Source: Hyperoplus lanceolatus
Taxonomy: Eukaryota; Chordata; Actinopteri; Uranoscopiformes; Ammodytidae
Length of the DNA stretch: 64,000 bases
Direction: 5' to 3'
Assembly (NCBI GenBank): GCA_026929865.2
Contig: CM049397.1
Location: 2,558,501-2,622,500 of the forward strand
Below, in pieces: positions 18,901 to 24,900 of this stretch (the stretch's first letter is position 1; every line of letters begins with the position of its first letter). Both the position numbers and the translations under genes were made by a program. The notes under the pieces were generated by a model, which worked only from the letters and a program-made list of their open reading frames with translations, did no database searches and was not told where the DNA came from.

Positions 18901-21900
18901 CAACACACCATAAACAAAAGCAAAGACCAGTATGTTAAAAGTAAGTGAAACATTCAAATCAGCAAATAAAAGCAGGTATTATTTAAACACGCAAAGTAGC
19001 TATGTAATGCTAATAAGCAAAGTAAATATGTAAAGTCGTTATATTAGGCTATCATTGGCTGAAGAAAGCGGATCTATTACACTAAATCCATTTAAAATAA
19101 TTTGACCTATTTCAATTGATTATTTCCTGAGTGTCTGAATTTAATCTTTGCATTTACTCATGCCATAGTGTAAGGTTCCATAGTTTTTTGACAGTATCTG
19201 ACGTTAAAACAGTGAACCCCCCCAGGGATATCCAAGTTAAATTTAAGACTTGTTAATACCTTTTTAATGACACTTAAAATGAAATCTAATGGCAAAATCA
19301 AGGCCATACTGGCAAAAGCAGGAAGGATATAATCCAAGTTCTGACACATTTGAGGGTACTGTTGTTAAGGAACATTCATTATAAATTCAAATTGATATAC
19401 TCACATTGATATACTGTAACAATAGCTTTGTGAAGTGTGTGTGAGTGTGTGTGTGTGTGTGTTCACTCTTAATAACAAAATCAAAGGGTGCTTATTTGTC
19501 ACATCATAACCCCTCTCCAAGTATTCATTTTATCCTACAAAAGGGCAATCAAAAAATGTAAGACATTTGTAATGTCTTACATTACTTTGTGAAATTCGAT
19601 ACTTCTAAGGCTTTTATTTTGAGAATATTAAAGGTGAAGTAAGCGATTTATTTATGTTAATATATGTGTTAAAAGGGGGCGCCCTTAGCTCAGTTGGTAA
19701 GGCGTCCCCCCATGGGCCTCGGCCAGCAGCGGACCCGGGTTCGATTCCAGCCCGCGGTCGTCCTCTGCATGTCACTCCCCTCGCTGCCCCATTTCAACTC
19801 TGTCTCTACACTATCAATAAAAAAGCATAAAAATGCCAAAAAATATCTTAAAGGTCACATATTATGCTAAATGCACTTTTTAAATGTGTTCTATCATATC
19901 CATGGTTCCACGGTGTGCCTAGAGACTGCCAAAATATTAGAAAAAATAACAATCTCTCCTTTTCTCACTCTCCCCCTTTCTGAAACCCTCACCCCTCCCC
20001 CCCAATATACTCCAGTCAGAATTCTCCTCGTTTCTGACCTCAAAAACTGGAAAGCCAGAAGCTTCCACTGTGCAGCCCACACCCCTATTTCTTATTGGTC
20101 CACGGCCCTGACAGACAGAGGGCGAGGCGTATTTGGCTTCGCTTCCGGACAGGGGGCGGGGGGAGCTCAAAGATTGTATATTTACGAGGGGAGCTGCAGC
20201 TCTTTTTAAAAAATAGGCCATTGTGAGATTAGCTGAACATCAGCATAGTACAATAAATTATCTGAAAGTTTTTTTCAGCAAACAATTAAAGAAAAACATA
20301 TTAGGGACCACTAAGACCATATAATATGGTGTATAATAGAACCGAAAAGTGTATAATATGGGAGCTTTAAAAAAAAATATATGTGTTAAATCACTGCATG
20401 TAATCGGCAAATCAACTTTTCGGGGATCCCACTACTGATAACCAATCAGAAGAGAGAACGCTACAAACCGGCACCCGTCTCACTGCCGGTGCACATGCAG
20501 AGCGACAGATGGGTGAATGTGTATGCGCCTACAATGGCGGAGCAGGTAAAAATCCTTCCCAATGTCTGTTTTGATGGTTTTTATCATGTTTTATCACACT
20601 TATGGATCTGAGATGATGCTAGATAACTCGCTGCTCGAAGACCGCATTAATGTTGTAACGTGGGGACGAGGGAGGGAACTGCTAACTGCAGCCACTGACA
20701 GGAGGTTAGCTAAACTGACCACTCCGCTTACTGAACCTTTAAATGCAATGTTTATTTAATGCGTTTCATACCTTGTCATGTTCAAAGAGCTGCAGCAGGA
20801 ATGTGGCCACAGTAGCAGTGATACCAATGAAGAGGTTGATGACGATGAGGAAGACGTAGGCCGTGCTGGGGACCTCAAACCAGAAGGATGCCGGGTACAT
20901 GATGGGAGTGATGGACCAGCTGCAAAGAAACAAGCACACAACATCACAGCACTGAACCATCAAGAAGGGGCTGAATCTATCCATTCATGTGACAGTCCTG
21001 ATTCGTATCTTGTGCGATTTTAAATGAATTCTTAAAGGAATACTTCACCCATACGGAACCGATGTTCTATCATTATAAAATCACTATTATAATATAACGA
21101 ATGAGGTTTTTCTTCCCTCAGTCTCCCCTTTAGTCTTCCCTTGGCCCAGCTGTCCCTACATTTTTCATCACACAGTGGAAAATCACAGTGAAAAAGCTGT
21201 GTGATGTAGGGTTAGACAGTGAGACCATTGACCGATGAACCGATTTCTAGTTTTTTGTACATTTACACTACATAGGACGTCAGAGTTCAATAGACCTTAT
21301 TTCCACCGGTGAAGTAGGTCTTTAAAGGGTCAGGTCACCCATATTATTAAGAACAACACCTTTTCTATTCCCTGTGGTATTTTACAGTCGCACAATCTTG
21401 GTTATAATTGTGCAAGATTGGAGATATCTTTCTCTCTTAGAATCGTTCTACTTCCAACCTCGGGGAACATTGAGGTGCAGAGCATCATACCATATTCATG
21501 ATAAATTAAAAGTAAATGTTTTTGAGTTAGTGTGTGCGTGTGTGTGTGTGTGTGTGTGTGTGTGTGTGTGTGTGGTTCTGTGTGTGTGTGTGGTAGTGTG
21601 TGTTGTGTGTGTGTGTGTGTGTGTGTGTGTGTGTGTGTGTGTGTGTGTGTGTGTGTGTGTGTGTGTGGTCTCACCCATATAGCAGAAAGAGTGAGAGGAC
21701 AGCAGGGAAGTTGGTAGGGGAGGTGTATGCCGGCAGGTCGAACACAAAGAGAATGAGTACACAGCAGGTGGCAGGGACCAGGTAGTTGAGCTGAGGACAG
21801 AGCAGAGGACGTGTTCAGTATTTACACACACACACACACACACACACACACACACACACACACACACACACACACACACACACACACACACACACACTGC

Positions 21901-24900
21901 CTCCTCCTCACCATGTCCCACATATAATTAGCCAGCCAATAGATGACGGGGTCACAGCCACTGACAAACTGCAGGTGCTTGGCCTTGGTGGATTTCTCTG
22001 CCACCAGGAACACTACGAAGCTGGCCGGCACAAAGGACATGGCCACGATGATGAAGATAGCAATCACCACGTCTGTCCCCTGGAGCCTGAGAGGGGAGGA
22101 GATCATAATACATAACGTTAACCTCATAGCATAATTGCCTAAATCATATTTACTCTACATCTACTCTACATCTACTTTTCATTAGCCTAATAGCATAATT
22201 GCCGAAGTCATATTTTAAGGGTTATAGAGTAGGGTAAAGTAGATGTAGAGTAGAATAGATGTAGAATAGAGTAGATGTAGAGTAGAGAAGTTGTGTAGTA
22301 AAAGTAGAGTAGAGTAAATATGAATTAGGCAATTATGCTATGAGGCTAACAATATTTGAATTGGCTTTATAAAACGGGATTCATGAAGACAACAAATCTA
22401 CTAAAGATAGCTTGATCATTCTGCTACTATTGCAGTTAATGATGCATAAGGACAGTTCAACAAAACAACAACGCCAGAAACATTTGTCAGATTATTTTGT
22501 GTGGAGAATGATTTTGTTGTCAAAATCCCTTTAAAGTCAAAATCAGTGAATCATTTTTTTCCTAGAATTGCTGACTCCGCCTTTAACTGTGTTCCCACAC
22601 CTCAGCTAATAACTATTTTTGTTTGAAAGATTTGCCAACTATCTCTTAAATTGTAATACATATATTATACAGTCATATGAAAAAGTTTGGGAACCCCTCT
22701 CAGCCGGCATTATAATTGACTCTGCTTTCACAAAAAAAAAAGATAAAAGTGGTATGTCTTTCATTTACCAGGAACAGCTAAGTACTGGGATGTTTTCCAA
22801 ACAAAGATTTTTTGAAAAGCAGTATTTTGTTGTATGAAATAAAATAAAATGTGAAAAACTGGCTGTGCAAAAATATAGGAACCCTTGTGGTTTTGTTGAT
22901 TTTAATGCCTGTTCAGATGGGCTTTATCAAACCCGCTCCACTGACATGCTTATGCTTTATGTCCCACAAGCCCGGTCTGAGCTGGGAAAGACAGCTTTTA
23001 GCTTCAGTGCCCCTGACTCCTGGAACAACTTACAGCAACAAATTAAACTAAATACATTCATATCCTTTGGCCAATTTAAACAGACTATCTTGGATCTGCC
23101 AAACTCTACTTGTAACTGTTTTAATTAGGCTATATTGTACTTTATTCCTTTTAATTGCTGCCACTCTTCACCACTTTGTAAATGTTTCAATTGTTTTTTT
23201 GTTTTTTTTCTCTTCTCTTCACTTGTTGTGTATTTGATGTATTTGCATTGAATATTTTGTATGTATTGTTGTTTTGAATTTGTTTTGACTCGACATCATT
23301 GAAAATGAGGGTCACCCCTCAATTGGTCTCTCGAGGATAAATAAAAGTTAAATGAAAAAATACATAGAGGCATTACTTAGCAGTGCTGCTGATCAACTCA
23401 CAAGTAGTCCAATGAGAGGCTGGCACTCGTTCGATTCATTGGGTGGTTTGTCAGTGTGATACCTGCAAAGCACATACACACAACCAACACAACTACCTCA
23501 TTGTACTGTAAATCCTAATAACCAAATCACCAATATCAAATTCCTCAAATTTAAAAAAAAAGCTCTGTCCATGTGGAATCCAATGTAAATACCATAGGCA
23601 GCAGGGTTTCCCTTGGATGGCAGGAGGTTGGCACGCAGGATGGCGTTGTTCAGGACATTCAAATAGGTTGGCATGCTGTGGTAACCTTTGTTGTTGTACA
23701 GAACCTGGACACAAGCGGACACTCTGTCTCAGTGCGTGTTTATACTGAATTGAAGCAAAGCTATTGTACTAGTTCAGAGTTCAAGTTCCAGTCTTACCTG
23801 AGCTGATCTGCGAACGGCTATCTTGCGTACCATAGGAGGTATATTCCTCCCAAAGGATGCTGGGATTGATTTTTGAATATTCCCCACTGTTAAACCACCA
23901 TATCTATTTGGGAACAAAGTTGGTGAACACATTAGATATTTCAAAAAATGTAATAAATTAACAGTGAAATTAAATGGATAAAATATTCAGGCCGTGTTGT
24001 TTCACTCTAACTCAACCACCACCGACATGTTGACTTCACATGTTTCACACTGCAGTTCATTTGTATTGCAACTGAATAATGTTGGGGGGAGTTGTGAAAG
24101 AAAGACAACAAAAAAAAAGTCATGACCAGTCCCTAATACAGGTCCAGCCACCAAAATGCATTATATCTATTAAATGCCACACAAAGGGGAAAATGCACCC
24201 AAACTGCCCTCAAATCAGCCCCCGAATTTGCATGTATGTAAATGAGGGAATATTCAAAATCCAGCACAAAATGACTCCCATTCAATGCAAATAACCCTCG
24301 TTGCAAATAGCGCATCATTCTCGCAGACCAGCGCAAATTGCGACAGGCAGATTTACTGGCGATTTATCACGTCTGAAAAGCTTGTACTAAAGCAGCGCTA
24401 TTTCTCCATCTCCCTTTCTCTCTGTATCTGTCCCTCTCTCTCCCTCTCTTCAAAGCTGGTGAGCTTTAAATGATATTGACTTGATATTGAGTTATATTAT
24501 GGGGCAAATCTACAGGCAAGGGGGGAAGTGGGTTGTGTACTTATATCAGATTTTAAAAAAAAAATGGAGATGGAGCTCAGGTTTATTTAATAAGGGATGC
24601 TTTATTAAAAACAATGACACCGTATAACCTGTGATCTGTGTACCAGCCGACCTGTGTGTATGTGAAGCAGATTATAGAACATTCATCACCATCCAGTAGA
24701 AGATGTTGAAATGGGCCCCTCAGTCATAGAACATGGGTCTGCAGACCACAGTACTGTTTTTACAGTTGCAGAGTAAAGAGTGCTGCCTGTTTAAGAAAAA
24801 TCTGAAAAATAATGTTCCCTCTGCATCTCAGGATTTGATATAGCCTCTAAAAGGTCCTCTCAAAGTGCACCAGTTTGATGCATTTTACTTTAAAAAGGTA

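Follow-up and report, generated by a model that had tools for sequence, protein, structure and literature searches.

Complementary GU and CA arrays around a short exon of an ABCA2-like gene in Hyperoplus lanceolatus: predicted pairing across the exon and a possible brake on its inclusion

The window analysed in this work is a stretch of 64,000 nucleotides (nt) from Hyperoplus lanceolatus (assembly GCA_026929865.2, 807 Mb; contig CM049397.1, positions 2,558,501 to 2,622,500), which carries most of an ABCA2-like gene (abca2) on its minus strand. Within this gene, a GU array upstream and a CA array downstream of the short exon e30 are predicted to pair with each other across the exon, and long arrays of both kinds were found to be concentrated at the splice sites of the gene. 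Tentatively, and with a confidence somewhat short of even, it is suggested that the putative e30 hairpin acts as a mild, array-length-dependent brake which operates via skipping against an otherwise normal inclusion of the exon. The number e30 was taken over from a preliminary description of this DNA; the same exon is number 28 in the present gene model, which lacks the first exons.

Layout of the arrays around e30

The elements forming the arrangement are, with positions given within the window:

21912-22086, minus strand: exon before the bracketed exon (e29)
21791-21911, minus strand: 121-nt intron upstream of e30, 47 nt without its array
21824-21897, minus strand: 100% pure GU array of 74 nt, separated by 14 nt from the donor and by 33 nt from the acceptor
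21675-21790, minus strand: bracketed exon e30, 116 nt, second membrane block
21530-21667, minus strand: CA array, 138 nt according to Tandem Repeats Finder (TRF), with pure runs of 64, 14 and 37 nt
20772-20919, minus strand: exon after the bracketed exon (e31)

At its acceptor, e30 starts with CTCAAC after an intronic CAG and at its donor it ends with ATATGG, followed by gtgaga. The CA array begins at position +8 of the 755-nt downstream intron, i.e., 7 nt past e30, and the longest perfect complement between the GU and CA arms amounts to 64 nt, the arms being 157 nt apart. The arrays, their distances and their orientation as given in the preliminary description were recovered on the minus strand with nearly single-base precision (about 139 nt had been stated for the CA array, as compared to 138 nt by TRF); its span of 21668-21911 left out the CA array itself. 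Two further of its claims hold: joining of e29 to e31 without e30 shifts the frame, giving 14 residues and then a stop, and e30 does reside in the second membrane block, as residues 4-145 of the 146-residue e29-e31 peptide align gap-free to ABCA1 1653-1794 and the peptide matches Pfam ABC2_membrane_3 (E 2.9e-26).

By eye, an inverted repeat with arms of about 50 nt (...cataattgcc... and its complement) was seen in the intron before e29 (ca. 22119-22353), about 30 nt upstream of the e29 acceptor; it resembles a small mobile element or a hairpin.

Predicted pairing across e30

Pairing across e30, which had been proposed in the preliminary description, is strongly predicted by folding and duplex calculation and is regarded as well supported in silico. 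In three folding windows, 72, 74 and 72 of the 74 GU nt pair with the CA array, whereby both splice sites of e30 fall into the predicted loop. For the 37 internal exons, duplexes were calculated between the 3'-terminal 200 nt of the preceding intron and the 5'-terminal 200 nt of the following one, and here e30 ranked first of 37 with -153.7 kcal/mol, as compared to -88.0 kcal/mol for the next exon and a median of -54.3 kcal/mol, these energies being those of naked RNA, free of proteins, helicases, timing and GU quadruplex formation. For arms of equal length, the mean pairing was 0.0 with 4 repeats, 0.3 with 6, 0.93 with 8 and 0.99 with 37; as pairing is hence predicted from about 8 repeats upwards, the exact array length in one assembly matters little. 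A bridge across an intron was considered as well and rejected, as no within-intron end-to-end duplex stands out: the best of 36 introns reached -81.0 kcal/mol, followed by -79.0 and -78.1 kcal/mol, far from the value of the e30 cross-exon duplex.

Long arrays at the splice sites of the gene

The e30 pair belongs to a set of nine CA/GU arrays of at least 27 nt, identified within 39 mapped introns (46,634 nt). Left out before counting were a CA array 5' of the first mapped exon (63417-63461) and the arrays 3' of the last exon (660, 3564 and 4453). Besides the e30 pair, the set comprises:

45555-45636, minus strand: GU array, 7 nt after a donor
40568-40647, minus strand: GU array, 13 nt after a donor
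39097-39147, minus strand: GU array, 6 nt before an acceptor
33720-33833, minus strand: interrupted GU array, 11 nt before an acceptor
15619-15693, minus strand: interrupted GU array, 2 nt before an acceptor, replacing the pyrimidine tract
14552-14578, minus strand: 27-nt CA array, 8 nt past a donor, predicted to pair with 15619-15693 across two exons
7030-7137, minus strand: pure GU array of 108 nt, separated by 31 nt from the acceptor of the last exon

The gaps between the nine arrays and their nearest splice sites are 7, 13, 6, 11, 14, 7, 2, 8 and 31 nt. Eight of nine arrays are hence found at most 14 nt from a splice site (P 1.9e-12 under uniform placement) and all nine at most 31 nt (P 4.2e-12), which argues that the tracts are not randomly placed; with the e30 pair and the last intron excluded, six of six arrays lie within 14 nt (P 2.9e-10). 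As controls, tandem repeats with a period of at least 10 in the same introns (0 of 12 within 14 nt of a splice site) and short CA/GU runs of 10-18 nt (1 of 5 within 31 nt) were considered, whereby a 10-nt GU run in intron 50889-53611 falls outside the five short runs owing to the pattern used. Both long CA arrays reside at donors. Of the seven GU arrays, five belong to acceptors when 21824-21897 is counted there though it is nearer to its donor. Even if there were no effect at e30, it would need explaining why nearly all long CA/GU arrays of the gene are found at splice sites.

All eight exon edges located at most 14 nt from an array are in frame with the neighbouring exons. Alignments to ABCA1 run gap-free through edges 45644, 40661, 21912 and 21675, leave at most one residue of slack near edge 39090 and three residues open near edge 33708, and include edge 14587 inside a matched stretch. 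The exon at 15616 was absent from the ABCA alignment query; it was placed by its phase and by an apparent resemblance.

Two arrays of other composition, both pyrimidine-rich, were observed at acceptors. A 340-nt TCCA/TCCC array (RNA sense, 34542-34881) reaches to 1 nt from the predicted acceptor of exon 34359-34540, where it seemingly takes the role of a pyrimidine tract of great length, and a 133-nt UC-rich array (RNA sense, 47871-48003) stops 9 nt before the acceptor of exon 47759-47861.

Arrays and exon brackets in the neighbouring 200 kb

For comparison, 200 kb on one side of the window (2,500 bases of which are N) were examined with an exon finder trained on abca2. When applied to the abca2 region, the finder made 36 predictions, of which 35 overlap true exons, and it placed both ends exactly for 32 of 39 exons, an accuracy which is optimistic because the training had used the same gene. 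Out of 54 predicted exons 49 were kept, five repeat-like or low-complexity ones being dropped; peptides containing long HT or VC repeats are rejected by the exon scripts, so that a predicted edge could be shifted away from an array. The 200 kb hold 33 CA/GU arrays, of which three lie at most 14 nt from a predicted exon edge (random mean 0.26; this number was reached in 8 of 4000 trials), four at most 20 nt (random mean 0.36; 0 of 4000) and four at most 31 nt (random mean 0.55; 13 of 4000), whereby the three thresholds are interdependent and exons missed by the finder lower the counts.

Two of the four exons near arrays gave family matches, one to GTF2H2 (with the following predicted exon included in the query) and one to the occludin domain, while no Pfam match was obtained for the other two. 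The occludin-domain exon (172 nt), about 176 kb from e30, is flanked by a GU array of 130 nt and a CA stretch of 76 nt (whole bracket at contig 2403814-2404480), 70.9 of whose CA nt are expected to pair with the GU array 461 nt away, and thus represents a second single-exon bracket. Within abca2, a bracket over two exons (14552-15693) is formed by the GU array 15619-15693 and the CA array 14552-14578, 26 of whose 27 nt are paired in the lowest-energy fold. That GU...CA exon brackets constitute a recurrent class in this genome, in which (AC)m-(GU)n halves in neighbouring introns pair across exons so that array length sets inclusion as a fast-mutating, allele-specific splicing dial, is considered distinctly doubtful; together with e30, the two brackets would make three examples of such a class in the 264 kb examined.

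Likeness to known systems

Tract length is known to alter splicing of CFTR exon 9, with its TG repeats, and in the case of eNOS intron 13, with its CA repeats. The arrangement around e30 resembles these single tracts in having GU before an acceptor or CA in an intron and differs from them in that both kinds flank one exon and that the effect on splicing is a prediction. A relation is also seen to the (AC)m-(GU)n introns of fish, the original account of which is reportedly that of Lin et al. (2016, Genome Res).

According to PMC9024468, PMC7404189 and PMC9198270, there are fish introns in which AC repeats close to the donor and GU repeats close to the acceptor fold onto each other over the length of the intron, and which are spliced independently of U2AF2. 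Shared with these are complementary CA/GU arrays beside splice sites, with CA on the donor and GU on the acceptor side, and a strong predicted duplex. In contrast, the two arrays around e30 lie in neighbouring introns with an exon between them, and none of the 39 mapped introns possesses long arrays of both kinds: in intron 15617-16971, the GU array at the acceptor is accompanied only by an 11-nt CA run in mid-intron, and intron 6999-8712 (the 39th) has a GU array and no CA run of at least 12 nt. Nor was the unusually stable within-intron duplex typical of such introns found here, the best value being the -81.0 kcal/mol given above. The abca2 arrays consequently look like split halves, or half-sites, of (AC)m-(GU)n introns. 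Neither this likeness nor the pinning of arrays to splice sites nor the self-folding of GU tracts had been part of the preliminary description.

As to self-folding, poly(UG) tracts (pUGs) of at least 12 repeats are described in PMC12276007 as over-represented around both 5' and 3' splice sites in humans and as the only dinucleotide repeats to show this there, 12 repeats being required for one pUG fold, a potassium-dependent quadruplex. Abca2 likewise possesses long GU arrays of at least 12 repeats within tens of nt of splice sites, 21824-21897 comprising 37 uninterrupted repeats, and GU tracts of such length can fold alone as a pUG fold; different from the human case, end-proximal CA arrays are found here too (two in abca2, one in a neighbour), three of three at donors.

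Complementary arms in both flanking introns, e.g., inverted Alus, give rise to circles or skipping (PMC9198270 and PMC7404189). With e30 such exons share the complementary arms (the 64-nt perfect complement at a spacing of 157 nt), but the arms of e30 are dinucleotide arrays very near to the exon, and the exon and its upstream intron are very short. The repeats as such, the sides on which they stand and the concept that AC-GU pairing takes part in the splicing of fish introns are already known. No account of AC/GU pairs bracketing an exon emerged from a literature search that covered few subscription papers and saw its sources in part, which makes this a weak negative. Relatives of the arrangement were looked for in collections holding no vertebrate genomes as such, which yielded 30 pattern matches in viral contigs and 124 in genome contigs, and none related by tblastn.

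Proposed mechanism and rival explanations

The suggested mechanism assumes that (AC)m-(GU)n halves lie in neighbouring introns around e30, so that the nearest partner of each would be found across the exon and not across the intron. A hairpin of 64-74 bp would then form in the nascent RNA, with e30 and both its splice sites located in a loop of about 157 nt. Binding of hnRNP L to the CA array and of TDP-43 or CELF to the GU array, together with helicases, would open the hairpin often enough for e30 to be normally included. Where the hairpin holds, e29 would be joined to e31, whereby the frame would be lost and the transcript probably destroyed; skipping of e30 is possible, and array length would serve as a mild, allele-dependent brake on full-length transporter mRNA. 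The proteins named had been put forward in the preliminary description, and they fit the HNRNPL-AC and TARDBP-GT pairs, which are called known length associations in PMC13174678. If arrays at intron ends do pair across exons, a known intron-defining mechanism of fish would carry a built-in conflict, as GU before an exon could pair with CA after it and loop the exon out. Moreover, as repeats change their length quickly, inclusion of this lipid-transporter exon could then vary between individuals.

The orientation with CA at donors and GU at acceptors is that reported for fish introns in PMC9024468 and hence supports the idea of a length-dependent brake. Several points weigh against it. Two of the seven GU arrays are located at donors, which is unexpected for half-sites; the end enrichment, which exists in the neighbouring genes, is much weaker there than in abca2; the energies are those of naked RNA; and a pronounced loss of e30 would come at a cost, as the exon contributes to a conserved membrane block. 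Furthermore, the weight of the bracket depends on what is taken as given: when six GU and two CA arrays were placed freely in 38 introns, an exon was flanked by a complementary pair within 160 nt in 0.00015 of trials, and when four GU-acceptor and two CA-donor introns were dealt randomly, a bracketed exon occurred in 0.20 of trials. Once arrays are pinned to intron ends the bracket follows easily, and the pinning is the stronger fact.

The latter result also favours the view that the arrays are passengers, i.e., that CA/GU slippage starts easily, from GT-rich donors and from the U/G-rich tracts before acceptors, and is tolerated beside splice sites, the pairing being inconsequential and e30 spliced normally. 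The sheer frequency of CA/GU arrays in the neighbouring sequence points in the same direction, whereas the two controls do not: short CA/GU runs are found mostly away from intron ends and none of the longer-period tandem repeats within 14 nt of them, hence simple tolerance fails to explain the pinning, although a mutation bias might. Passengers are on balance considered rather unlikely. A lower probability is assigned to an action of each tract alone, with CA past the donor as a length-dependent hnRNP L site and GU ahead of the acceptor as a TDP-43/CELF site or pUG quadruplex, so that pairing would be irrelevant. In line with this idea, which is judged unlikely, are the human enrichment of pUGs and the length of the e30 GU array, the relations of repeat length to HNRNPL and TARDBP, and the finding that most end-proximal arrays are without a partner in the same intron; in addition, an AC repeat is associated with skipping of SH3YL1 exon 9 (PMC13174678). 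An action of single tracts ignores, though, what distinguishes e30, namely a complementary partner 157 nt away and the strongest duplex of 37 exons.

Least credence, and very little of it, is given to back-splicing of e30 into a 116-nt circular RNA driven by the hairpin, an outcome which the preliminary description had named, next to exon skipping, as favoured by such an arrangement. Complementary arms flanking one exon are the standard geometry for circles, and both splice sites reside in the predicted loop; yet in human and mouse data the exons that give single-exon circles are unusually long, and so are the introns on either side of them (PMC6376117). With an exon of 116 nt and introns of 121 and 755 nt the case of e30 is the opposite, a circular RNA from e30 being unlikely because exon and introns are short, and among the literature matches listed on circles with repeat-bearing flanks, themselves seen in part, nothing was on point. 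Taken together, the interpretation given in the preliminary description is partly supported.

Gene model

The gene model comprises 39 exons, is phase consistent and was built from reading frames and splice signals, with the exon ends at 23593 and 17377 placed by hand. Most of its exon peptides, when joined, match ABCA1, ABCA4 and ABCA7 across both halves, and the 13 solved sequences matched by the e29-e31 peptide query are all ABCA1, ABCA7, ABCA4 or ABCA3; by resemblance the gene is presumably ABCA2. The last coding exon begins at 6998 and the first placeable exon is 59690-59911. First exons were not found with short motifs in 50001-64000 and the next 10 kb, and exon numbers are hence provisional; intron 55282-59689 probably hides at least one exon. 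A search of the window against Rfam gave 0 matches at the gathering score. Besides the 121-nt intron upstream of e30, very short introns (93, 113 and 130 nt) cluster in 23463-28424. Finally, inside a large intron, at about 32176-32559 on the minus strand, reading frames were observed which seem to resemble a broken Tc1-type transposase.

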